Shown: piece by piece, positions 1-19,010 of the stretch
Numbering within the stretch: position 1 is the stretch's first letter
Layout of the letters: every line of letters begins with the position of its first letter
Assembly (NCBI GenBank): GCA_035623075.1
Contig: DASPUC010000029.1
Coordinates: forward strand, 1 to 64,000
DNA: 64,000 nucleotides
Source: Nitrospiraceae bacterium
GTDB taxonomy: Bacteria > Nitrospirota > Nitrospiria > Nitrospirales > Nitrospiraceae
Reading direction: 5' to 3'
Program-made: the position numbers and the translations under genes
The notes under the pieces: model-generated
Told to the model about the DNA's origin: nothing
Seen by the model: only the letters and a program-made list of their open reading frames with translations
Database searches by the model: none

Positions 1-39
1 CCCCACCCTGGCCCTATGGGTGACCACTTGGGAGGAGCG

Positions 40-618
40 ATGCATACCATTCTGAGAGGGCGCGGATGGAGGGTAGCACGGACAAGTCTTCTCTGCATTC
101 TGTGTCTCTCGGTTGTGGCGGCTGGGGCCATCAACGCGCAGGCGCATAGCCTCTTCCCGGAGGGAGGCATGGATTGCTCGGATAACGCGTTGGAATTACC
201 CCCTGAATGGACCCAAGCCCTAGAAGGTCCGACACGCAGGCTAGTCGCACTGGCACACCGGGGCAAGACGGAGCCCGTGACCCCGTCCATGTCTGCACTT
301 GCTGTGACCTTGTATCGGGCCGACGCCGTGCAAGCGCTGGTCGAGTCGCAGTCAGGAGGAAATTCCTCTGGTTCCTACGCGGGGCTCATCGGCCTTTCGG
401 TACCGCAGGACGGAGTGTATCGAATCAGCTCAGTCTCTCCTCTCGGGATCAAAGTCGTCACAAGCAAGGGGCGGGTAGAGTCGCACGCGTTCGAGTTTCG
501 ATCCCGGTGTGACAAGACCTTTAAAAGCGTCGACTTCAAGCTGCAGGCGGGCCTGGTCTACTGGCTCGAACTGTCCTCGAAGAGTCAGGAGGTTTTGGTG
601 ATGATCACGCCTGAGTGA
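40..618 (+). CDS. Exported protein of unknown function
   Basis: This 192-residue protein begins at an ATG preceded by GGAGG with 4 bases of spacing. An in-frame ATG at 16 has no ribosome binding site. The N-terminus is a signal peptide: an Arg-rich stretch, a hydrophobic core (TSLLCILCLSVVAAGA) and an Ala-rich end near residue 34. The mature part has two cysteines and ends in beta-strand-like segments resembling a small periplasmic beta-sandwich. I do not recognise the family. It heads a run of small exported-protein genes on the same strand. Confidence 0.6.
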   Translation: MHTILRGRGWRVARTSLLCILCLSVVAAGAINAQAHSLFPEGGMDCSDNALELPPEWTQALEGPTRRLVALAHRGKTEPVTPSMSALAVTLYRADAVQALVESQSGGNSSGSYAGLIGLSVPQDGVYRISSVSPLGIKVVTSKGRVESHAFEFRSRCDKTFKSVDFKLQAGLVYWLELSSKSQEVLVMITPE

Positions 619-720
619 GCGCATGCCTTTATCAATTCACTCACGGACCAGACCAAGGAAGGGAAGACCGTGGGGTTTCTCCTTACGCCCAACACGTCCT
701 ATCGGAGTGAAGGAACAGCC

Positions 721-975
721 ATGAGCAGCGCTGACCTCAAGGTCGGCGACTGGGTGGTCGTGGTATTGACACTTGACGGGATCTTGACGAAGGAAGGCGG
801 AGAAGGTGGCACGGCTCAAGACATCCGGTTCGCATCGGATGAACAGAAATACCGAACATCGAGTCTGGGCGTTGTGCACCCTTCGCCTGGACCCGTCACC
901 GGGGTGTCGGAGGTGGCCTCCCTCCGATTCCTCGGCCCTTCGGGGGATGGTGAGGTGATCAATGCCGACGAATAA
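721..975 (+). CDS. Small hypothetical protein
   Basis: This 84-residue protein starts at an ATG preceded by a purine-rich GAAGGA about 6 bases away. It begins MSSADLKVGDWVVVVLTLDG, a small strand-rich fold, with no signal peptide or membrane segment. Its 3' end overlaps the next gene by 14 bases in another frame, which suggests co-translation. No family is recognised. The frame could extend upstream to 670, but without a binding site. Confidence 0.4.
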   Translation: MSSADLKVGDWVVVVLTLDGILTKEGGEGGTAQDIRFASDEQKYRTSSLGVVHPSPGPVTGVSEVASLRFLGPSGDGEVINADE

Positions 976-1468
976 GCAACTGACCGTCGAGGCGCTTGGC
1001 AGCGTGGCGCAGGACGCAAGTCTGCGAGTCGATTCGCTCAACGTCGTCGCTGTTCGACTCTTAGCGGTTGCGGTGAGGGGCTTGAGTGGAAGGACAGTCC
1101 GATTGGACCAGGCTAGGTTAGGCGTACCGCAAACTTATCACCTTTGGCCAATGGTTGAAGTCGAGGCGGAAGCCGGTCGCTCCCGCCAAGAATTGAAACT
1201 CTACGTTTGTCCCAAAGGGGCTTCGTCTGCGGATGATGAACGCTTCCCTGTTGGAACGGCGTTCGTCGTGGAAACCCTCGCCCTTGCGAACGGAGGTGGC
1301 GGGCGGGTGGCGTCAATCTTCGTCATGGAAAAATTTGCCAGCATAGATGCTCATGGTCGGAGCAACGGCTACCAGGATGTCTGGGTCTATGCGATGTATG
1401 ATTCAGTGGAGCAAGCCCTGGCCAGGGGTTCGGCAGCCTGTGGTGTCTGCCGTCTGTCGGTCATGTGA
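962..1468 (+). CDS. Cytochrome P460-like domain protein with CxxCR in place of CxxCH
   Basis: This 168-residue protein has the layout of the cytochrome P460 / heme-binding P460-like family: a strand ending in LYVCPKGA, then FPVGTAFVVET, then IFVMEKFAS, then a DVWVYAMYD strand, then a C-terminal CxxC. In the family the last motif is CxxCH and binds haem. Here it is C160-G-V-C163-R164, so the proximal histidine is missing. No signal peptide is visible, although most P460 proteins are periplasmic. It starts inside the 3' end of the preceding gene, with GAGGTG upstream. The fold assignment is from motif order; a haem function is doubtful. Confidence 0.55.
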   Translation: MPTNKQLTVEALGSVAQDASLRVDSLNVVAVRLLAVAVRGLSGRTVRLDQARLGVPQTYHLWPMVEVEAEAGRSRQELKLYVCPKGASSADDERFPVGTAFVVETLALANGGGGRVASIFVMEKFASIDAHGRSNGYQDVWVYAMYDSVEQALARGSAACGVCRLSVM

Positions 1469-1579
1469 GGCGTCAAGAAGAAGGGGTTACGAACCTCTCG
1501 GCTGGTGGCCTTTGCAAGTTCCAGCGTTCGACGTCAAATTGCGCACGTGGGAATATCACCGAGGAAGGGAGGACTGACC

Positions 1580-1882
1580 ATGATCAATATCAATGGTGTA
1601 CTCGCAGTATTAGTGTGCGGGGTCTTCATGATCGGAGGACCGGTTGAAATGGTTCTGGCTGGTAGCGACGGACACGTGCAGGAAAGCATCAAACATGCGA
1701 AGGAAGGGATCAAGCACGAGAAGGAAGCGATCAAACATCTCGAAGAATCGATCAGAGCGAGCAATGATGCCCACGCAAAAGAGGCATTGGAACATGCGAA
1801 GGAAGCCGTCAAACATGCCGAAGAATCTCTGGCTCATGCTGAGCAAGCCGCACCGTCCGGCTTGGAGAAGAAGGACAAGTAA
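1580..1882 (+). CDS. SmbP-like small histidine-rich periplasmic metal-binding protein
   Basis: This 100-residue protein starts at an ATG behind GGGAGGA. A signal peptide (about residues 1-27) is followed by a mature domain that is almost all helix, with histidines in a seven-residue rhythm (IKHAKEG, IKHEKEA, IKHLEES, LEHAKEA, VKHAEES, LAHAEQ). This is the pattern of SmbP, the small metal-binding protein of Nitrosomonas europaea, which binds several copper or other divalent ions in a helical bundle. The role here is probably periplasmic metal buffering. The call rests on repeat pattern and size. Confidence 0.7.
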   Translation: MININGVLAVLVCGVFMIGGPVEMVLAGSDGHVQESIKHAKEGIKHEKEAIKHLEESIRASNDAHAKEALEHAKEAVKHAEESLAHAEQAAPSGLEKKDK

Positions 1883-1923
1883 GGGCGGGAGGCACTGCGC
1901 TCGATTCCATTCTCCTCTCAGCA

Positions 1924-1951
1924 GGCACGGCGGGGGACTCCCGTCCGTGCC
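1924..1951. terminator. GC-rich hairpin after the SmbP-like gene, possible terminator
   Basis: GGCACGG at 1924-1930 pairs with CCGTGCC at 1945-1951, with an inner CGGG/CCCG pairing. It lies 42 bases after the SmbP-like stop codon. There is only a weak T-rich tail (GTGTCTCTTGT), so it may be an inefficient or Rho-assisted terminator. Confidence 0.35.
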
Positions 1952-2119
1952 GTGTCTCTTGTAAAATCAGCGTTTGTTCTTCCCCTGGTTCAGAATACCA
2001 TCTGTCCATTTGATTCTAGGCGCGGCGGTTTTGTTGCATCTGTGTGCAGCCATTGGTTTCTGTTGGTAGACGTTCCCGGGTACGTGGGGTTAGAGTGCCG
2101 CGTCTTTGGATAGGATATC

Positions 2120-2464
2120 GTGCGCCTTTTAATCGCTCTGATTCTCAGTGTCGTCCTTCCCCCGGTCGGCTTTGCCGTCGCCTCTTCTGACCTCGACATT
2201 GAACGCCTGCTGCGTAAGCAAGTATTCAACCAGGCGTTTGAGGGGTTCGACCACTATTACGTAACGATCGAAAATGACCGGCCACAGGCGGACGGTTCCC
2301 GCGAAGTCACAGTTGTGGCCACTGGAAAATTTCTTCAGCACACCAAACGCATGAAAGTGTTGTTTCTGATCGTTGGCGATCAAGTAATCGGGGGACAGGT
2401 ACTGGAGGGAACGGGGTTGCCTCCGTGCCTGGCTCCGAGTGATTCTGGTTCATCAGCCCTCTAA
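2120..2464 (+). CDS. Small exported protein of unknown function
   Basis: This 114-residue protein starts at GTG with AGGAT about 5 bases upstream. The first 22 residues form a signal peptide (LLIALILSVVLPPVGFAVAS). The mature part has an N-terminal helix (DIERLLRKQVFNQAFEGF), then strand-like segments, and a Cys-containing tail. No catalytic motif or family is recognised. The next gene starts 30 bases downstream, so the two may share a transcript. Confidence 0.5.
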   Translation: MRLLIALILSVVLPPVGFAVASSDLDIERLLRKQVFNQAFEGFDHYYVTIENDRPQADGSREVTVVATGKFLQHTKRMKVLFLIVGDQVIGGQVLEGTGLPPCLAPSDSGSSAL

Positions 2465-2494
2465 CTCTTACTATGATAAAGGAGGAGGTCATTC

Positions 2495-2974
2495 ATGCTG
2501 CACAGGACTGTAGTAGGGATCATGGCAAGCATAGGTATCACGATGCTCGCTGCTGCCGCTGAAGCGCACCAGGCGGGCGGGGTCGAGGTCGGCGACCTGG
2601 AAACAGGGTCAGTGGTGGGCCAGCCGTTCAAGGAACTCGACGTCGATCTTGAAATCTACGCGACAGAAGTCGGCAGTCTCAAGGTTCTTTATCCGCCGAC
2701 CACGGTGCTGGACCTTAAGGTCAGGCCTGGCGCTCCCGTGGTGATCAAGGTGACGAACAAGTCGACGGTGGATCGGGGATTTCTGATGACGGCGGATGGG
2801 ACCCAGGCTGCTCCCACAGTCTTGAAGGCGCAGGTCGTGCTCAAGCCGGGTGAAAGTAAATATATTGGCGTGCCTCTCAGCGATCTCATGTATGCAACAG
2901 TGGGAAACACACTGACCTATCGGGATCATCTGAATCCTAAGGACCCGGGCGGAAAGCTGATCATGATTAAGTAA
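2495..2974 (+). CDS. Exported cupredoxin-like protein without evident copper ligands
   Basis: This 159-residue protein starts behind a strong AAAGGAGG site. A signal peptide ends near AEAHQAGG. The mature domain reads like a cupredoxin-type beta sandwich (VLDLKVRPGAPVVIKVTNKS, then VVLKPGESKYIGVPL). The usual type-1 copper set (His, Cys, His, Met in a C-terminal loop) is not present: no cysteine occurs in the mature part. It could be a structural or partner-binding version of the fold. The cupredoxin call is by general pattern only. Confidence 0.5.
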   Translation: MLHRTVVGIMASIGITMLAAAAEAHQAGGVEVGDLETGSVVGQPFKELDVDLEIYATEVGSLKVLYPPTTVLDLKVRPGAPVVIKVTNKSTVDRGFLMTADGTQAAPTVLKAQVVLKPGESKYIGVPLSDLMYATVGNTLTYRDHLNPKDPGGKLIMIK

Positions 2975-3000
2975 GCACTACGGCTATTGGGACCATTCAT

Positions 3001-3043
3001 GCGGGCCTTGTCGATATGTTTATCGGCAGGGCCTGCTTGCTTT
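3001..3043 (+). terminator. Intrinsic terminator after the cupredoxin-like gene
   Basis: A 16-base stem, 3001-3016 with 3021-3036, pairs fully if three G-U wobbles are allowed, around a TGTT loop. It is followed by TTGCTTTCC. It starts 26 bases after the stop codon and marks the end of the small exported-protein group. Confidence 0.65.
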
Positions 3044-3134
3044 CCTTCGGCTTCCCATCCGAATTGATTTCATCTCGTCCTCATCAAAACCATCCGTTCC
3101 GTAGCGTTCTGAATGGTGCCTCTTTAGGCAGGTG

Positions 3135-3196
3135 CCGCCCGATCCGGCGCGAGCCGGACGGGCGGGGAAGAGCCCCCGTCGCAGTAACACGGGGGC
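3135..3196. repeat. Two tandem GC-rich hairpins, candidate origin or element boundary
   Basis: Hairpin one: CCGCCCG 3135-3141 and CCGGC 3144-3148 pair with GCCGG 3153-3157 and CGGGCGG 3159-3165 around a GCGA loop. Hairpin two: GCCCCCGT 3172-3179 pairs with ACGGGGGC 3189-3196. They lie directly upstream of the promoter of the regulator-rep operon. Rolling-circle initiators nick hairpin loops, so an origin role is possible but inferred. The rest of 2975-3296 holds the terminator and the promoter and no gene. Confidence 0.45.
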
Positions 3197-3234
3197 CTAG
3201 GAATACTTACCTTCGTGGCTCGTCAGGATGCCGC

Positions 3235-3264
3235 TTGACAATATCTATAGCACGAAGATATAAG
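3235..3264 (+). promoter_or_regulatory. Sigma-70-type promoter of the element operon
   Basis: TTGACA at 3235-3240 and TATAAG at 3259-3264 (18-base spacer; 17 if read as ATATAA). The regulator gene starts 33 bases further on. The spacer and early leader contain CTATAG boxes. Confidence 0.6.
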
Positions 3265-3295
3265 AAGCAAGCTATAGCTATAACGGAGGGATATA
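3244..3295. promoter_or_regulatory. CTATAG boxes, candidate operator for the RHH protein
   Basis: The palindrome CTATAG occurs at 3245-3250 and 3272-3277, 27 bases apart, with related TATAG at 3293-3297. They lie in the promoter spacer and between the -10 box and the start codon. Ribbon-helix-helix proteins often bind short repeated palindromes in their own promoters, so autoregulation is a reasonable inference. Confidence 0.4.
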
Positions 3296-3296
3296 G

Positions 3297-3587
3297 ATGA
3301 GCCCAAAACCCAAGAGCGCCCCTCATCGAGTGCTGCTGTCCTTGCCAACAGAGTTGTATGACACCGTTACGCGATTGTCCCGTGCGATGGAAAAACCGCG
3401 CGCGGAAGTGATCCGCGAGCTGTTAGCCGAACAACAACCGATCCTGGACATGATGGCCACGACCTTCGAACAAGCCAAGGTCGGCCATAAAGAACAGGTC
3501 GCAAAAGGCTTACAGAAGCTCACGGGAGAGGTCCTGAAGGAATTGGGGTCGGTGATGTCTTCATCCAAGGCTCGGAAAAAGCACTAG
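3297..3587 (+). CDS. CopG-like ribbon-helix-helix protein
   Basis: This 96-residue protein starts behind GGAGGG with about 6 bases of spacing. The N-terminal half fits a ribbon-helix-helix domain: a strand (HRVLLSLPTELYD), then two helices (TVTRLSRAM and RAEVIRELLAEQ). The C-terminal half is helical and ends in a basic tail. Such proteins on rolling-circle replicons repress rep and set copy number. The next gene, the initiator, starts 5 bases after its stop codon, which supports that role. Confidence 0.75.
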   Translation: MSPKPKSAPHRVLLSLPTELYDTVTRLSRAMEKPRAEVIRELLAEQQPILDMMATTFEQAKVGHKEQVAKGLQKLTGEVLKELGSVMSSSKARKKH

Positions 3588-3592
3588 AGATC

Positions 3593-4675
3593 ATGGCCGT
3601 CGAATCACCACAACTGCTCCTGCATGGCATTGATACGGTCCAGTGTGCCTATTACCTCGGTCCACCTGCCTCAAAACACCTCGACTTCGCCAAGCTCGCT
3701 GTCATGAAGGAACAACTCCGGATGGACAAGAGCCGAGAGCCGCGTGCGATTAAGCTCGGAGGAACGGAGTTTTTCCTGCATCCCTATGGAAGCAGTTCTG
3801 GTTATCCCTTCGTTTTGACAAATGAGGATTTTAAGATCGAAGTTGGGGAGTTTAATCATCCGTCGTGCTTCGTCACCTTCAAAAGCCAAGGTCTGTGGAA
3901 GCATACGGCCTGGACACTGCATCAGCGGTTGCTCAACTGGGCTCGAATGATCGGCTGCGACGTTCAACAAGCGGAAACACTCTCACGTGTGGATTTCTGT
4001 TTTGATTATGCCCTTGCCGAACGGGACTTCGATGCCGATTGCTTCGTCAGCCAATCAGACAAGGACAGTCAGCACCGTGAGAATGGCGCGATCCAAACCT
4101 TTACCTTTGGCAGAGGAGGTGTGGTGTTGCGTGTGTATGACAAAGTCGCGGAGATCCGGCAGCAGAGTGCCAAGGTGTGGTTTCATGAGCTCTGGGGACA
4201 ACAGGAGAACGTCTGGCGCATTGAATGGCAGGTCAGGAAACCCGTGTTGCGGAGTTTTCACATCAGTACGTTTGTCGATCTGCAGGAGCAGGAGGGGAGG
4301 GTACTTCAGTACCTGGCTGAGCATCATGATACGCTACGGGTTCCGACGCAGGATTCGAACCGTTCACGCTGGCCACTGCACCCGTTGTGGGTGGATGTGC
4401 AGCAGCGCATTGCCGAATTACACGCGCTGGAGTCTAAGCAGATCGATGGAAAAGAATTGGTGCTGGACGAACGATTGATCCGACTGACGATTAGTGTCTA
4501 CGGCTACCTCAAGCGGGTGGCCGCGGTGTCCTGTGTAAAGGAGGGCCAGCCGATGATGAGCGAAGAAGATGCGCTTCGCTTGCTGGGGGATCGCTTGCAC
4601 CGGCTGTTCGATCCCCTGAGCTGGAAATTCGATGTGCAAAAACGAATCAAAGCGATCGAGTTGGGGGAATGGTAA
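3593..4675 (+). CDS. Rep_trans-type replication initiator
   Basis: This 360-residue protein carries the signature order of the Rep_trans family of rolling-circle initiators. A first strand has paired acidic residues (SRVDFCFDYA, about residue 130). A second has the tyrosine motif VLRVYDKVAEI (about residue 180). A third reads VWRIEWQVRKPVLR. By analogy the tyrosine of YDK would attack the nicked DNA strand and the aspartates would bind metal. The start codon has only a weak binding site and is probably coupled to the upstream gene. It resembles plasmid or phage initiators, so the element may replicate as a circle when excised. Confidence 0.7.
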   Translation: MAVESPQLLLHGIDTVQCAYYLGPPASKHLDFAKLAVMKEQLRMDKSREPRAIKLGGTEFFLHPYGSSSGYPFVLTNEDFKIEVGEFNHPSCFVTFKSQGLWKHTAWTLHQRLLNWARMIGCDVQQAETLSRVDFCFDYALAERDFDADCFVSQSDKDSQHRENGAIQTFTFGRGGVVLRVYDKVAEIRQQSAKVWFHELWGQQENVWRIEWQVRKPVLRSFHISTFVDLQEQEGRVLQYLAEHHDTLRVPTQDSNRSRWPLHPLWVDVQQRIAELHALESKQIDGKELVLDERLIRLTISVYGYLKRVAAVSCVKEGQPMMSEEDALRLLGDRLHRLFDPLSWKFDVQKRIKAIELGEW

Positions 4676-4860
4676 CCAAACAGCAAGTGCTCGACTTGGT
4701 GAATCAGCGGGTCACGCACATCCTGTTGGTGGCGGAGGCCTCGTTACCGCCCAGCCAGTATCAGGCGTTTCGGAAGGTGGTCTTGGATGCGTTTGGACGG
4801 AATGGATTGGGTGGGCAGTTGGACCGGCTTGGGTGGCCGGTGGTGAGGGAGGAGCGGTAA
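4669..4860 (+). CDS. Small protein in the mobile element
   Basis: This 63-residue protein overlaps the end of the initiator gene by 7 bases. It is mostly helical (QQVLDLVNQRVTHILLVAEA, then QYQAFRKVVLDAFGR) and ends in a charged tail. No family is recognised. The overlap and shared strand make it part of the same operon. Confidence 0.5.
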   Translation: MVTKQQVLDLVNQRVTHILLVAEASLPPSQYQAFRKVVLDAFGRNGLGGQLDRLGWPVVREER

Positions 4861-4905
4861 GGATGGGGCCGGAATACACGATGCACGAAAGGCGGTGCCC
4901 TATGC

Positions 4906-5052
4906 GTGCCCCATGATCCTGACGAAACGGAGTTGACGGTGCGGTGTGAGCATTTCAGCGAAAGCGTGTCGGAGGCAGAAGTGCGGTTGATTGAGTCGTC
5001 CCTGGGGAATCTGATACAAGCGGTGCTCGTGAGCCAAGACGAAGAAAGGTAA
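4906..5052 (+). CDS. Small acidic protein with GTG start, mobile element
   Basis: An open frame with no ATG runs from the previous stop codon at 4858-4860 to the TAA at 5050-5052. From GTG 4906 it encodes 48 residues (beginning VPHDPDETELTVRCEHFSES), acidic and amphipathic, with protein-like codon composition. Its stop lies 4 bases before the recombinase start. The binding site is weak (GGCGG), and the true start could be another non-ATG codon. It may be an accessory protein of the recombinase or initiator. Confidence 0.45.
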   Translation: MPHDPDETELTVRCEHFSESVSEAEVRLIESSLGNLIQAVLVSQDEER

Positions 5053-5056
5053 ATCC

Positions 5057-6688
5057 GTGATTGTTGCTCTATATGCCCGAGTCTCGACGAGTAAACAGGC
5101 CGAGAAAGATCTCTCGATACCGGATCAACTGAGCCAGATGCGGGCGTGGTGCAAAGCCCAAGGCCACAGTGCGGCAACTGAATATGTGGAGCCCGGCGCA
5201 TCCGCTACGGATGATCGGCGCCCGGTCTTTCAACGGATGATCGCGGAAGCCTGTGTGAGTCCTTCTCCCTTCGAGGCGATTGTGGTGCATAGCCTCTCTC
5301 GTTTCTTTCGGGACTCGCTGGAATTCGGCTTGTACGAACGGAACCTCAAGCGGTGTGGCGTTCGTGTGCTCTCCATCACGCAGCAGACGAGTGACGATCC
5401 TTCGGGGGAAATGATCCGCCGGATCTTCAGCGTGTTCGACGAATATCAAAGCAAAGAGAACGGGAAGCATACGCTCCGAGCCATGCGCGAGAATGCCCGG
5501 CAAGGATTTTTTAATGGCTCACGTCCGCCTGTGGGATACCGAGCGGTCGAGGTTGCACTGCCGGGGAACAAGGGGAAGAAAAAGCAGTTGGAGATCGATG
5601 AGGCAGAGGCGGTCGTGGTCAAACGGGTATTCGAGCGCTATCTATCAGGGGATCGGGGCCGGGACCTGGGTGTCCATGGCCTAGCCGCACAGTTTAATCA
5701 GGAAGGTCTGTTGGTTCGCGGGCGAGAATGGACCAGTGGCCGAGTCTATGAGGTGTTGACCAACCGGGCCTATATCGGGGAGCACTATTTCAACAAATAC
5801 GAGAAGCGAGGAGGTGCGGTCCGGCGCGTGAAGCCTCGGGACGAGTGGGTCCTCATCAAGGTGGAACCGATTGTCAGGGAAAACCTCTTTAGGGCTGTCC
5901 AAGAGAAATTGGCATCGCGTTCTCCGGAGCGTGTGCCCCCGCGCGTGGTGAATTGTCCCACGCTCTTAACTGGGCTGTTGAAGTGTGGGGTCTGTGGGGC
6001 GGGGATGACCTTGGCGACAGGGAAAAGCGGGAAGTATCGCTATTACAAGTGCTCGAACCGGATTCTGAAAGGGAAAGACACCTGCACCAGTGACAATCTG
6101 CCGACGGAACAAGTGGACCAGCTGGTCCTGTCCTCCTTGGCGGATCGGGTCTTTACCGCGTCACGCGTCCGAACAATCCTGGAGGGTCTTCGAAAACGCT
6201 TGAGCCAGTCACAAGCCTCACACGAGAGCAGAGTGAAGCAGCTGACGAAGGAATTGACCAGTGTGCAACAGCGAAGCCAGAAGCTGTATGAGGCGGTCGA
6301 AAAGGGATTGTTGCCGATGGATTCCTCGTTGAGTGAGCGGGCCAACAAGCTTCAAGCGCAACGGCAGGCGTTGCTGACTGAGATTGCGGGGTTGCGACGA
6401 CTCAAGCAGATGCCAGTGGAGGCTCTTGGAGAGAAGAAGATACACGCATTCACGGCTGCATTGCGTGAGCGATTGTTGGGCAAAGACCGTGTGTTCAGCA
6501 AGAAGTACCTGAAGCTTTTGGTTGAGGAGATCCGCTACCGGAACCGTCAGCTGGTCATGAAAGGAAGCAATGCGAGGGTGGCGCGTGTGGCTGGAGAAAG
6601 CAACGTGGGCACTCCGCAGGGGGCAGTGCCCACGTTCGATCTAGATTGGCTCCCCGGGCAGGACTCGAACCTGCGACCAGCCGGTTAA
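5057..6688 (+). CDS. Large serine recombinase (integrase) with tRNA-derived C-terminus
   Basis: This 543-residue protein starts at GTG. The N-terminal catalytic domain begins LYARVSTSKQ, with Ser10 as the expected nucleophile and downstream Arg motifs (SLSRFFRD). A recombinase domain follows, then a zinc ribbon near residues 306-340 (CGVCGAG and YYKCSNR with later Cys), then a long coiled coil (about 375-440). These are the parts of a large serine integrase. The last 13 residues (531-543) plus stop are exactly the antisense of the first-read part of the tRNA-Asn gene at 6647-6688, so the native tail in the circular form is probably different. It is the last gene of the element operon. Confidence 0.9.
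   Translation: MIVALYARVSTSKQAEKDLSIPDQLSQMRAWCKAQGHSAATEYVEPGASATDDRRPVFQRMIAEACVSPSPFEAIVVHSLSRFFRDSLEFGLYERNLKRCGVRVLSITQQTSDDPSGEMIRRIFSVFDEYQSKENGKHTLRAMRENARQGFFNGSRPPVGYRAVEVALPGNKGKKKQLEIDEAEAVVVKRVFERYLSGDRGRDLGVHGLAAQFNQEGLLVRGREWTSGRVYEVLTNRAYIGEHYFNKYEKRGGAVRRVKPRDEWVLIKVEPIVRENLFRAVQEKLASRSPERVPPRVVNCPTLLTGLLKCGVCGAGMTLATGKSGKYRYYKCSNRILKGKDTCTSDNLPTEQVDQLVLSSLADRVFTASRVRTILEGLRKRLSQSQASHESRVKQLTKELTSVQQRSQKLYEAVEKGLLPMDSSLSERANKLQAQRQALLTEIAGLRRLKQMPVEALGEKKIHAFTAALRERLLGKDRVFSKKYLKLLVEEIRYRNRQLVMKGSNARVARVAGESNVGTPQGAVPTFDLDWLPGQDSNLRPAG
6602..6636. repeat. Perfect 12-bp inverted repeat next to the tRNA junction
   Basis: AACGTGGGCACT at 6602-6613 is the exact reverse complement of AGTGCCCACGTT at 6625-6636, with an 11-base GC-rich centre. 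It lies inside the recombinase frame, 10 bases before the tRNA end. It could be a recombinase binding arm of the attachment site or a transcript hairpin. Confidence 0.6.
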
Positions 6689-6722
6689 CAGCCGGCTGCT
6701 CTACCAACTGAGCTACCGGGGA
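6647..6722 (-). tRNA. tRNA-Asn (GTT)
   Basis: The minus strand gives a full 76-base cloverleaf: acceptor TCCCCGG/CCGGGGA, D arm GCTC/GAGC, anticodon stem CCGG with loop CTGTTAA (anticodon GTT), T arm with GTTCGAGTCC, discriminator G and an encoded CCA. The CCA end faces the mobile element, and the tRNA itself is intact. Confidence 0.95.
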
Positions 6723-16819: not shown

Positions 16820-17721
16820 GGAGCGATTGTACCTCCACGGCAGATGCTGCATGCGTGACGGTCGGATCGCTTATCCGAAACATCCGTGCGCGGTTAGCGA
16901 CGGCTGGGATTGAGTCGAGCCAGCAAGAAGCGGTCTGGTTGGTCGAGTTTGTGATCGGTCTCTCAGGCGTGGCGCAAATCATCGAGCGCGACCGGCTGCT
17001 CTCCACAAGCGAAATCGCCAGGGTGCAGGCTCTTGTCGCTCGGCGCCTCGCGCGCGAACCACTCCAGTACATTCTTGGGACGCAGGAATTTTGCGGGATG
17101 GAGTGTGCGGTCACACCGGCCGTGCTTATTCCGAGGCCAGAGACTGAATTGCTTGTTGAGGAAGTGATTCGGCGTGTTTCTCCAGCACAGGAGGCTACTC
17201 TTGTCGATGTCTGCACCGGATCCGGGTGCATTGCTGTGGCGGTTGCTCGTCTCAGGCCCCGTATTCGCGTGATCGCAATCGATGTTTCGCGTGCCGCGCT
17301 GCAAAATGCTCGGCAGAATGCTCTCCGTCATGCGCTGAGTGATCCAATCACGTGGCTGGAAGGGGACATGCTGTCGCCGCTGGAAGAGATGAAGCTGGAC
17401 TGGTGCGTGGACGTGATAGTCGCGAATCCCCCGTATGTGACTGAAGCCGACTGGCTTGATCTGCAGCCGGAGGTCCGGGATTTCGAACCACGGCAGGCAC
17501 TGGTGGCAGGGCCTCATGGGACAGAGGGTCATGAGCGACTCCTGAAGGACGCGCGACGTTATCTATCTCCTGGTGGTGCGTTGATCATGGAAATCGGAGC
17601 AGGCCAAGGGGGAGCGATACGCCAGATCTTGGAATCAATCGATGGTTATGGGCCTGTGTGTCTTCTCAGGGATGCAGCAGGTATTGAACGGGTCGTGATC
17701 GCAGAACGGCGAGAGGTGTAG
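16816..17721 (+). CDS. prmC: Release factor glutamine methyltransferase
   Basis: This 301-residue protein has the S-adenosylmethionine motif ([16 protein letters not shown]), the acidic loop (VIAIDVS) and NPPY ([14 protein letters not shown], about residue 203), which binds the glutamine side chain. The N-terminal helical bundle for release-factor binding contains [15 protein letters not shown]. Its position behind prfA is the usual context. Confidence 0.93.
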
Positions 17722-17732
17722 ATACATTCGCC

Positions 17733-19010
17733 ATGGATCGCATCGTCATCACAGGTGGAGTTCCACTGCACGGAGAAGTGCAAGTGAGCGGCGCCAAAAA
17801 TTCGGCCTTGCCGCTCTTGGCCTCGACGATCCTGGGTGGTGAGAAGTGTGTTCTCACCAACGTGCCCCGCGTTGTTGATGTCATGACCATGGGCAAGCTG
17901 CTGCGCATGTTGGGCGCGTCCGTTGTACATGAAGGCAATCGTGCCGTCGTGCGGGCCGACGTCATTCATTCGACACAGGCACCCTATGACCTTGTGAAGA
18001 CCATGCGAGCCTCCGTCCTGGTCTTAGGGCCGCTACTCGCGCGATGGGGCGAAGCGAGAGTCTCGATGCCCGGAGGCTGTGCGATTGGTTCCCGGCCCGT
18101 CAATCTGCACCTCGCAGGACTCGCGAAGCTGGGAGCGGAAGTGTCTATCGAGCACGGCTACATTCGGGCAAAGGCGAAGCGATTGATAGGGGCCAGGATC
18201 TATTGCGATACCACGACCGTGACGGGCACCGAGAATCTCATGATGGCTGCATCACTCGCACAGGGCACAACAGTCATCGAAAATGCCGCGAAAGAGCCGG
18301 AAATCGTCGACCTAGCCAATTTTCTTGTCAAGCGGGGCGCGCGCATTACGGGAGCCGGGACGGATGTGATCACGATCGAAGGAGTTCGCGAGCTCCGAGG
18401 CAGCGATCACGAAGTGATTCCGGACCGCATTGAAGCCGGAACACATCTCGTAGCTGGGGCGATCACGAAAGGGTCGGTCACCGTGAATCGGTGTCGGCCC
18501 GACCATCTGGAGGCGCTCTTGATCAAACTGCGCGAAGCGGGCGCAACCGTCCACATTCAAAAAGAACGGGTACAGCTCAGCGTGGAGAAACGACTGAAGA
18601 GTGTGGACATCCGGACACTACCATTCCCGGGATTTCCGACCGATATGCAGGCGCAGATGGTGGCGCTCATGACCGTTTCCGAGGGGACGAGTGTGATTAC
18701 CGAAACGGTGTTCGAAAGCCGCTTCATGCATGTCGAAGAACTGTGGCGTATGGGAGCGGACATCAAAATCGAAGGGAATCGCGCGGTCGTCACCGGTCCG
18801 ACAGGGCTCGCCGGCGCTCCGGTCATGGCCTCCGATCTTCGGGCCAGCGCGGGGTTGATTCTTGCCGGTCTGGCGGCGGAAGGCGTGACCGAGGTCTTGC
18901 GCGTCTACCATCTCGACCGTGGCTATGAGCGGATCGAGGAAAAGCTCCGTGGGTTGGGGGCCAAGATTGAGCGCAGGAAGGAAGGGATGGCCACGACACC
19001 CGGGCCATGA
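17733..19010 (+). CDS. murA: UDP-N-acetylglucosamine 1-carboxyvinyltransferase
   Basis: This 425-residue protein catalyses the first committed step of peptidoglycan synthesis. Family features: [13 protein letters not shown] with the Lys-Asn pair near residue 22, the loop [17 protein letters not shown] carrying the catalytic Cys (not Asp, so fosfomycin-sensitive by this criterion), and the C-terminal [15 protein letters not shown]. It starts 11 bases after prmC with no strong binding site. Confidence 0.95.

Follow-up and report, generated by a model that had tools for sequence, protein, structure and literature searches.

A probable integrative element at a tRNA-Asn gene of a Nitrospiraceae bacterium with an attachment site inside its serine integrase gene

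The window described here, a stretch of 64,000 nucleotides from a Nitrospiraceae bacterium (positions 1 to 64,000 of contig DASPUC010000029.1, assembly GCA_035623075.1), carries part of what is probably an integrative element of about 21.5 kb, be it an integrative plasmid or an island resembling an integrative and mobilizable element (IME), which enters a tRNA-Asn gene by means of a large serine recombinase (LSR, the integrase) whose C-terminal tail would be exchanged in the process. The outline is that of an ordinary integrative element with cargo; its parts form a new family, and the exchange of the integrase tail is the unusual feature. The original prediction is supported in so far as an integrative element occupies the tRNA-Asn 3′ end and combines a large serine integrase with a Rep of rolling-circle type, but it missed the most unusual feature of the element, which is that its attachment site (attP) lies inside the integrase gene.

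The left ends of the element and its relatives share GGCTCCC-N15-TGGGCA(C/A)TGG and the right ends share GTGCCCA-N15-GGCTCCC. The right arm GTGCCCA, 15 bp from the core, recurs in inverted orientation at the opposite end of the element as the left arm TGGGCAC. In the delimited elements the joined ends give a symmetric attP, GTGCCCA-N15-GGCTCCC-N15-TGGGCAC. The core is GGCTCCC, the point from which occupied sites, short sites and the junctions of tandem arrays differ in sequence; as part of the direct repeat TGGCTCCC it restores the 3′ end of the tRNA, and attB consists of this 3′ end plus the downstream flank. Integrase copies ending at tRNA-Asn are those of the window and of loci L022, L025, L032, L033, L083 and L084, while other copies diverge immediately past ...GATTGGCTCC. 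Tandem arrays at tRNA-Asn are present in genomes G145 and G123. In G145 a second integrase (LSR2), which is about 25% identical to the LSR and adjoins tRNA-Asn in G123 and G208, loses its own end after TTGGCTCCCC and runs into new sequence instead, this being the left end of a window-type element that separates LSR2 from the tRNA. A left end in G123 comes directly after a hairpin terminator of the type that adjoins tRNA-Asn at short sites. It is by these two junctions that the left end of the element type was defined. Such short (element-free) sites exist in many relatives, so that the lack of any empty site, named in the original prediction as grounds for refuting it, is not what was observed.

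The core of attP is situated inside the LSR reading frame. As integrated, the LSR ends in ...LPGQDSNLRPAG, about its last dozen codons being the 3′ half of the tRNA read antisense, and the left ends extend the LSR frame beyond the core into tails such as LPNEKDSGHWRCSVRVLHRRNGV, LPASSETGQWICRVTFAV and LPEHDKHEQWSCLVRVTVKK, each closed by a stop codon. In the 12 distinct left ends, ten tails stop at 17-24 residues, one at 42 and one has no stop within 50, with a consensus of the type LP-x5-GHW-x-C-x-VRV. Past the arm, the in-frame residue similarity of these left ends is 0.565 against -1.27±0.18 for shuffled sequences (0 of 2000 shuffles), with the other two frames being near null (-0.89 and -1.13), and their identity by codon position is 0.31/0.54/0.28, the second position being the most conserved. 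From this in-frame similarity and codon-position pattern, the most fitting interpretation of the left end is that it codes for part of the integrase made by the circular form. Integration would exchange an integrase C-terminus of about 20 aa for a tail derived from the tRNA or, in tandem arrays, for the tail of a neighbour. The arrangement corresponds to that of integrases termed 'suicidal', with attP inside the integrase open reading frame (ORF) and a product that is altered on integration; the int(N)/int(C) split of the archaeal tyrosine type is absent, as this is a bacterial serine recombinase with an intact ORF and a different tail.

In silico analysis shows the LSR to possess resolvase N-terminal, Recombinase and zinc ribbon domains, all above cutoff, and to match the phrog_95 integrase with an E-value of 6e-102. 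Its best NCBIfam match is CcrB, though far below the CcrB cutoff. It has the domain architecture of the CcrB of SCCmec and of large serine integrases; unlike the element here, the staphylococcal cassette chromosome (SCC) inserts in a protein gene and has its ccr genes inside the element, away from the ends. Relatives of the LSR with 32-40% identity were found in plasmid and phage records, with five of the ten examined ending in tRNA genes, these being tRNA-Arg (S. meliloti pSymB), tRNA-Thr (Sphingomonas), tRNA-Ser twice (Haematobacter and Paracoccus) and tRNA-Asn (a gut contig); those at tRNA-Arg, tRNA-Thr and tRNA-Ser are from Alphaproteobacteria. The matching other end in S. meliloti lies 38.6 kb away with the tail RAREDETGHSYVIVAPIHF, and a candidate left end in Sphingomonas gives the tail CTQSDETGHSDCWEISVPRG, both followed by a stop codon. 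An 84-aa C-terminal query for the native tail gave no match in a plasmid collection.

The LSR2 family targets tRNA-Asn too and likewise ends antisense in the tRNA, with copies at L022 (complement of 17154-18422), L088:8078-9598 and L098:18040-19560. The LSR2 element apparently possesses a conserved left end distinct from that of the window type, reading GGCTCCACGGCCCTTATTCTAG in G145 and much alike in G123. The G145 array (G145:C1 1416164-1440864) comprises three elements in tandem at one tRNA-Asn, namely element B, the LSR2 element and element A, and it seems that every newcomer was inserted on the side nearest the tRNA.

For the window element, the left end is placed on another contig. Searched against the source genome, the left-end pattern was matched exactly once (G000:C51:26830-26861), with no control matches, and the last 501 bp of contig C51 match window positions 1-501 at 95%, the first 78 and last ~81 bp being identical, a pattern that fits strain variants forming a bubble in the assembly. 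To the left of C51:26830 are a terminator and a hydrolase gene; as the hydrolase gene is found 0.2-1.3 kb from tRNA-Asn in many relatives, this flank is considered to be host backbone. Together, the match to the left attachment site (attL), the overlap and the flanking backbone suggest an element of some 21.46 kb spanning C51:26830 to window position 6654, of which the window would hold the right 6.65 kb. Window base 1, which partly resembles a left arm, was rejected as the left end, the same sequence lying inside C51 with much cargo upstream and attL at C51:26830. The cargo on the C51 part includes TonB, a thioredoxin-like redoxin, HlyD/CusB, ABC and MacB-type permeases, a TonB receptor, an HMA-like protein and cytochrome P460, with a small metal-binding protein (SMBP) in the window. 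The original prediction had drawn the left boundary near 3130 and described a minimal, cargo-free element of about 3.5 kb with only five genes; instead, the double hairpin at positions 3135-3198 is internal, C51 carries the left attachment site, and positions 1-2974 are cargo of the same element of ~21.5 kb.

Judging by its predicted structure, Rep is regarded as an initiator of rolling-circle replication, of the Rep_trans/inovirus type. With Foldseek, chains of 4cij, a rolling-circle initiator of Geobacillus stearothermophilus, occupied ranks 1-4 in PDB for the AlphaFold model of Rep (E-values 4.7e-10 to 1e-9, prob 1.00, TM 0.35-0.48), and 4cij was also the single profile match, a weak one (E-value 0.079). 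The top viral structural matches were Inoviridae proteins, one of them named Rep (E-value 1e-9). Neither Rep nor its aligned relatives match Pfam Rep_trans (PF02486), and the sole Pfam signal for Rep is a sub-threshold one to Phage_CRI (PF05144, E-value 0.008). The rolling-circle-type initiator of the original prediction is thus borne out by its best PDB match (4cij, 4.7e-10), but not by any Pfam match to Rep_trans. A distant relative of Rep is encoded by a two-ORF 1.7-kb plasmid of Mesotoga, and no match to Rep was found in viral contigs and phage collections.

The double hairpin upstream of Rep was found in 11 out of 11 elements examined, either beside the RHH (ribbon-helix-helix) gene or further upstream. 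In these elements, 8 of the 12 stem pairs of hairpin 1 are changed on both sides yet still paired, and its covariation score is 0.344 against 0.139±0.022 for shuffled alignments, a value reached by 0 of 500 shuffles. An Rfam scan of the hairpins returned no match. The double hairpin is probably a replication (double-strand) origin or origin of transfer (oriT); as a candidate for the left terminus it was rejected, being internal in other elements.

On this basis, the serine integrase would recombine attP with the tRNA-Asn 3′ end, so that the tRNA is restored and the element is bordered by a direct repeat of ~7-10 bp, and the excised circle would be replicated in rolling-circle fashion by Rep from the double hairpin. 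Rep might also double as a relaxase using the secretion system of a helper. On the circle, the integrase ORF would cross the core into the left end of the element and so gain its conserved native tail, while after integration it would enter the tRNA and take on the ending given above. A number of points weigh against this reading. The tail is non-standard at L028 (42 codons open) and L141 (no stop within 50), and the core pattern did not reveal the left end of either the Paracoccus or the Haematobacter element. The link between C51 and the window is an overlap of 501 bp at 95% and not an identical join, and the assemblies of many genomes are fragmented, several being metagenome-assembled genomes. 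Confidence in the Rep model is modest (pLDDT 65.5), and the Rep sequence falls below Pfam thresholds. Finally, circular form, excision and transfer were none of them observed, and no recombination directionality factor (RDF) was identified.

It is possible, though rather unlikely, that the element is strictly an IME, with Rep as a MobT-like relaxase of the Rep_trans family and the hairpins as oriT, spreading by way of a conjugative element and without self-maintenance as a plasmid. The Rep_trans 'initiators' of streptococcal IMEs do act as relaxases (PMC7563843), and in S. meliloti the element whose LSR is related has a relaxase and a conjugative coupling-type protein, showing that this integrase type serves mobilizable islands. 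However, neither a coupling protein nor a secretion gene is present among the annotated cargo, nor is any relaxase besides the candidate Rep, and the small Mesotoga plasmid with its distant Rep relative fits a role in replication. The replication and relaxase roles of Rep are compatible and not exclusive. Descent from a filamentous (inovirus-like) phage such as phiRSM1, as a satellite or remnant, is improbable. It would agree with the Inoviridae Rep as top viral structural match and with phiRSM1, itself an inovirus, having its serine recombinase at a tRNA-Ser gene (PMC4471427), but no inovirus coat or assembly (Zot-like) genes were noticed when the delimited elements were inspected by ORF list or Pfam scan (ORFs scanned in part), Rep is unmatched in the phage and viral collections, and the cargo consists of metal transport, defence and sulfatase genes. 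Least probable by far, and in effect refuted as long as C51:26830 belongs to the window element, is a compact 3.5-kb element of Rep and LSR sitting beside unrelated host genes at 1-2974. While the hairpin motif of the window begins at ~3134, just before the RHH gene, in other elements this motif is found inward of the left end and is flanked by cargo on at least one side, and the attL motif is absent from window positions 1-3300, its only exact match in the genome being in C51.

Serine integrases integrate without a partner and usually excise only with an RDF, their directionality being a central question which also matters for genome-engineering tools. As to the function of the tail exchange, we lean slightly towards an exchange that is real but a by-product of attP lying near the integrase gene, with no effect on the reaction performed, as elements must hold int and att together and integrated integrase ORFs are intact despite their differing tails. 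Against this, the tail past the core is conserved as protein in the 12 left ends, so that it appears to be selected in the circular form. A more doubtful hypothesis is that this clade of serine recombinases for tRNA 3′ ends uses its own frame as a switch, the circle-encoded tail making the enzyme competent for integration and the tRNA-encoded or neighbour-encoded tail that replaces it changing or blocking the reaction, such that the state of the enzyme would record integration. An integrase family with a C-terminus exchanged by recombination offers a direct test of whether the tail sets direction. It also supplies integrases for which attP and attB are predicted and whose targets, the conserved 3′ ends of tRNA genes in several bacteria, survive the insertion.

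A number of known systems share individual features with the element. The original prediction of a little-described class was partly right, but tRNA genes have been recorded before as sites of serine recombinases (PMC3218068, PMC4471427). Such integration has been called rare, known cases being the actinomycete integrative and conjugative elements (AICEs) of Mycobacterium at tRNA-Leu (PMC3218068) and the filamentous phage phiRSM1 at tRNA-Ser (PMC4471427), both rolling-circle elements. The Mycobacterium AICEs resemble the element here in having a serine recombinase at a tRNA gene and in belonging to a group which replicates by its own initiator (PMC3218068). However, AICEs have an FtsK-like Tra translocase and initiators of the RepSA/RepAM type, none of which were seen among the cargo proteins scanned here (a subset of the element ORFs). 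Phages phiRSM1 and phiRSM3 of Ralstonia share the inovirus-type Rep fold but differ in their resolvase/invertase-subfamily recombinase, in attP lying between orf14 and orf15 and in their full phage gene set (PMC4471427). IMEs and integrative and conjugative elements (ICEs) with Rep_trans/MobT proteins have been described in Firmicutes (PMC5704250, PMC7563843). These are likewise integrative, with a Rep_trans-type protein able to replicate and/or mobilize the excised circle, but the Rep here lacks the Pfam Rep_trans match, and in the IMEs of those reports serine recombinases integrate inside genes, tRNA 3′ ends being the target of tyrosine integrases.

The 'suicidal' SSV-type tyrosine integrases, described as exclusively archaeal, also have attP within the integrase gene and a product altered on integration (PMC8371274). 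Their gene is split in two, whereas the bacterial serine integrase here loses only a short tail and its ORF stays intact. In mycobacteriophage BPs, attP lies within the repressor gene and immunity is integration-dependent (PMC4557955); there too the C-terminus of the product of a coding gene is changed on integration, serving as a switch, but the gene is that of a repressor and not an integrase, and its C-terminal residues are removed and not exchanged. No report of a serine integrase with attP in its own gene was found in the open literature, which is no proof of novelty. Nor was any literature found on Nitrospira mobile elements at tRNA-Asn. To our knowledge, few mobile elements seem to have been described in nitrite-oxidizing Nitrospira, for which the present family documents cargo islands concerned with metal handling and phage defence.

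Among 396 Nitrospirota genomes searched, Rep was found in 14, of which 11 are Nitrospiraceae, and the LSR is present in all 11 of the latter. The search for the same gene order in other genomes, suggested by the original prediction, thus yielded related elements in other Nitrospiraceae, with Rep-orfC-(orfD)-LSR constant in the copies read. The RHH gene is present in four of these copies, and in several others an unrelated 230-aa protein takes its place. Since orfC and orfD are kept beside Rep and LSR in relatives, they are regarded as genuine genes, and one may guess at orfC being an accessory or directionality factor. The delimited relatives are 5.9-13 kb in size (~8.7 kb at L022, 6.3 at L023, 8.6 at L024, 7.1 at L025, 13.0 at L026 and 5.9 at L027) and occupy the same tRNA-Asn, sometimes in tandem, every one having additional genes. 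Variable cargo in some includes SIR2-like (ThsA-type), PD-Lambda-like, deaminase and Ham1 genes, the first two being defence genes, and a sulfatase gene lies inside the L034 element.

The features of the window are given in Table 1. The five ORFs of the original prediction (RHH, Rep, two small ORFs and LSR), all on the plus strand, and the tRNA-Asn were confirmed. The LSR stop codon is inside the tRNA gene, so that the two overlap and are not merely adjacent.

Table 1. Features of the element and its target in the window
Feature	Position	Strand	Basis or remark
Right-hand cargo part of element	1-2974	+	ORF and Pfam scans; left end in contig C51
Cargo ORFs	16-618, 670-975, 962-1468, 2120-2464	+	Within 1-2974
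Small metal-binding protein (SMBP)	1505-1882	+	Cargo ORF
Weak cupredoxin-like ORF	2495-2974	+	Cargo ORF
Hairpin 1 of conserved double hairpin	3135-3165	+	Compensatory changes
Hairpin 2, invariant GTAACACGGGGG, then conserved ATAC box	3171-3198	+	In 11/11 elements examined
RHH (CopG-like) regulator	3297-3587	+	PF01402, E-value 9.7e-6
Rep, 360 aa, putative rolling-circle initiator, predicted Rep_trans/inovirus-Rep fold	3593-4675	+	Foldseek; PF05144 sub-threshold
orfC, 63 aa, overlaps rep end	4669-4860	+	Homologues 53-73% identical, equivalent place in related elements
orfD, 48 aa, acidic	4906-5052	+	Homologues 40-62% identical, equivalent place in most related elements
Large serine recombinase (LSR, integrase), 543 aa as integrated	5057-6688	+	PF00239, PF07508, PF13408; phrog_95
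Right attP arm GTGCCCA	6626-6632	+	Exact in 10/10 right ends compared
tRNA-Asn(GTT), encoded CCA, integration target	6647-6722	-	ARAGORN and Rfam
Crossover core GGCTCCC, part of direct repeat TGGCTCCC	6648-6654	.	Divergence point among sites

Just upstream of the RHH gene, window positions 3235-3296 contain a promoter-like TTGACA region and CTATAG/TATAAC repeats, which are kept in L027 and L031 and are a possible RHH operator. The source genome also has a 69% identical copy (G000:C24:91462-91820) of window positions 2564-2922, the region of the cupredoxin-like gene.

In genome G222, a group I intron of ~250 nt (L032:17247-17496; Rfam RF00028, 72-88 bits) splits the anticodon loop of tRNA-Asn(GTT), with the integrase ORF continuing antisense into the intron, and no further intact tRNA-Asn(GTT) gene was found in this genome. 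Similar introns are present at the same tRNA-Asn locus in the Nitrospiraceae genomes G311 (L048:813-1075), G167 (L062:1093-1374) and G149 (L099:19242-19492). In G155 the last 26 integrase codons stand alone beside tRNA-Asn (L087:1195-1320), perhaps left over from an old integration. L122, L138 and L141 likewise carry left-end motifs from which tails can be read, with neither Rep nor LSR in the short stretch read, these possibly being remnants or fragments of related elements.

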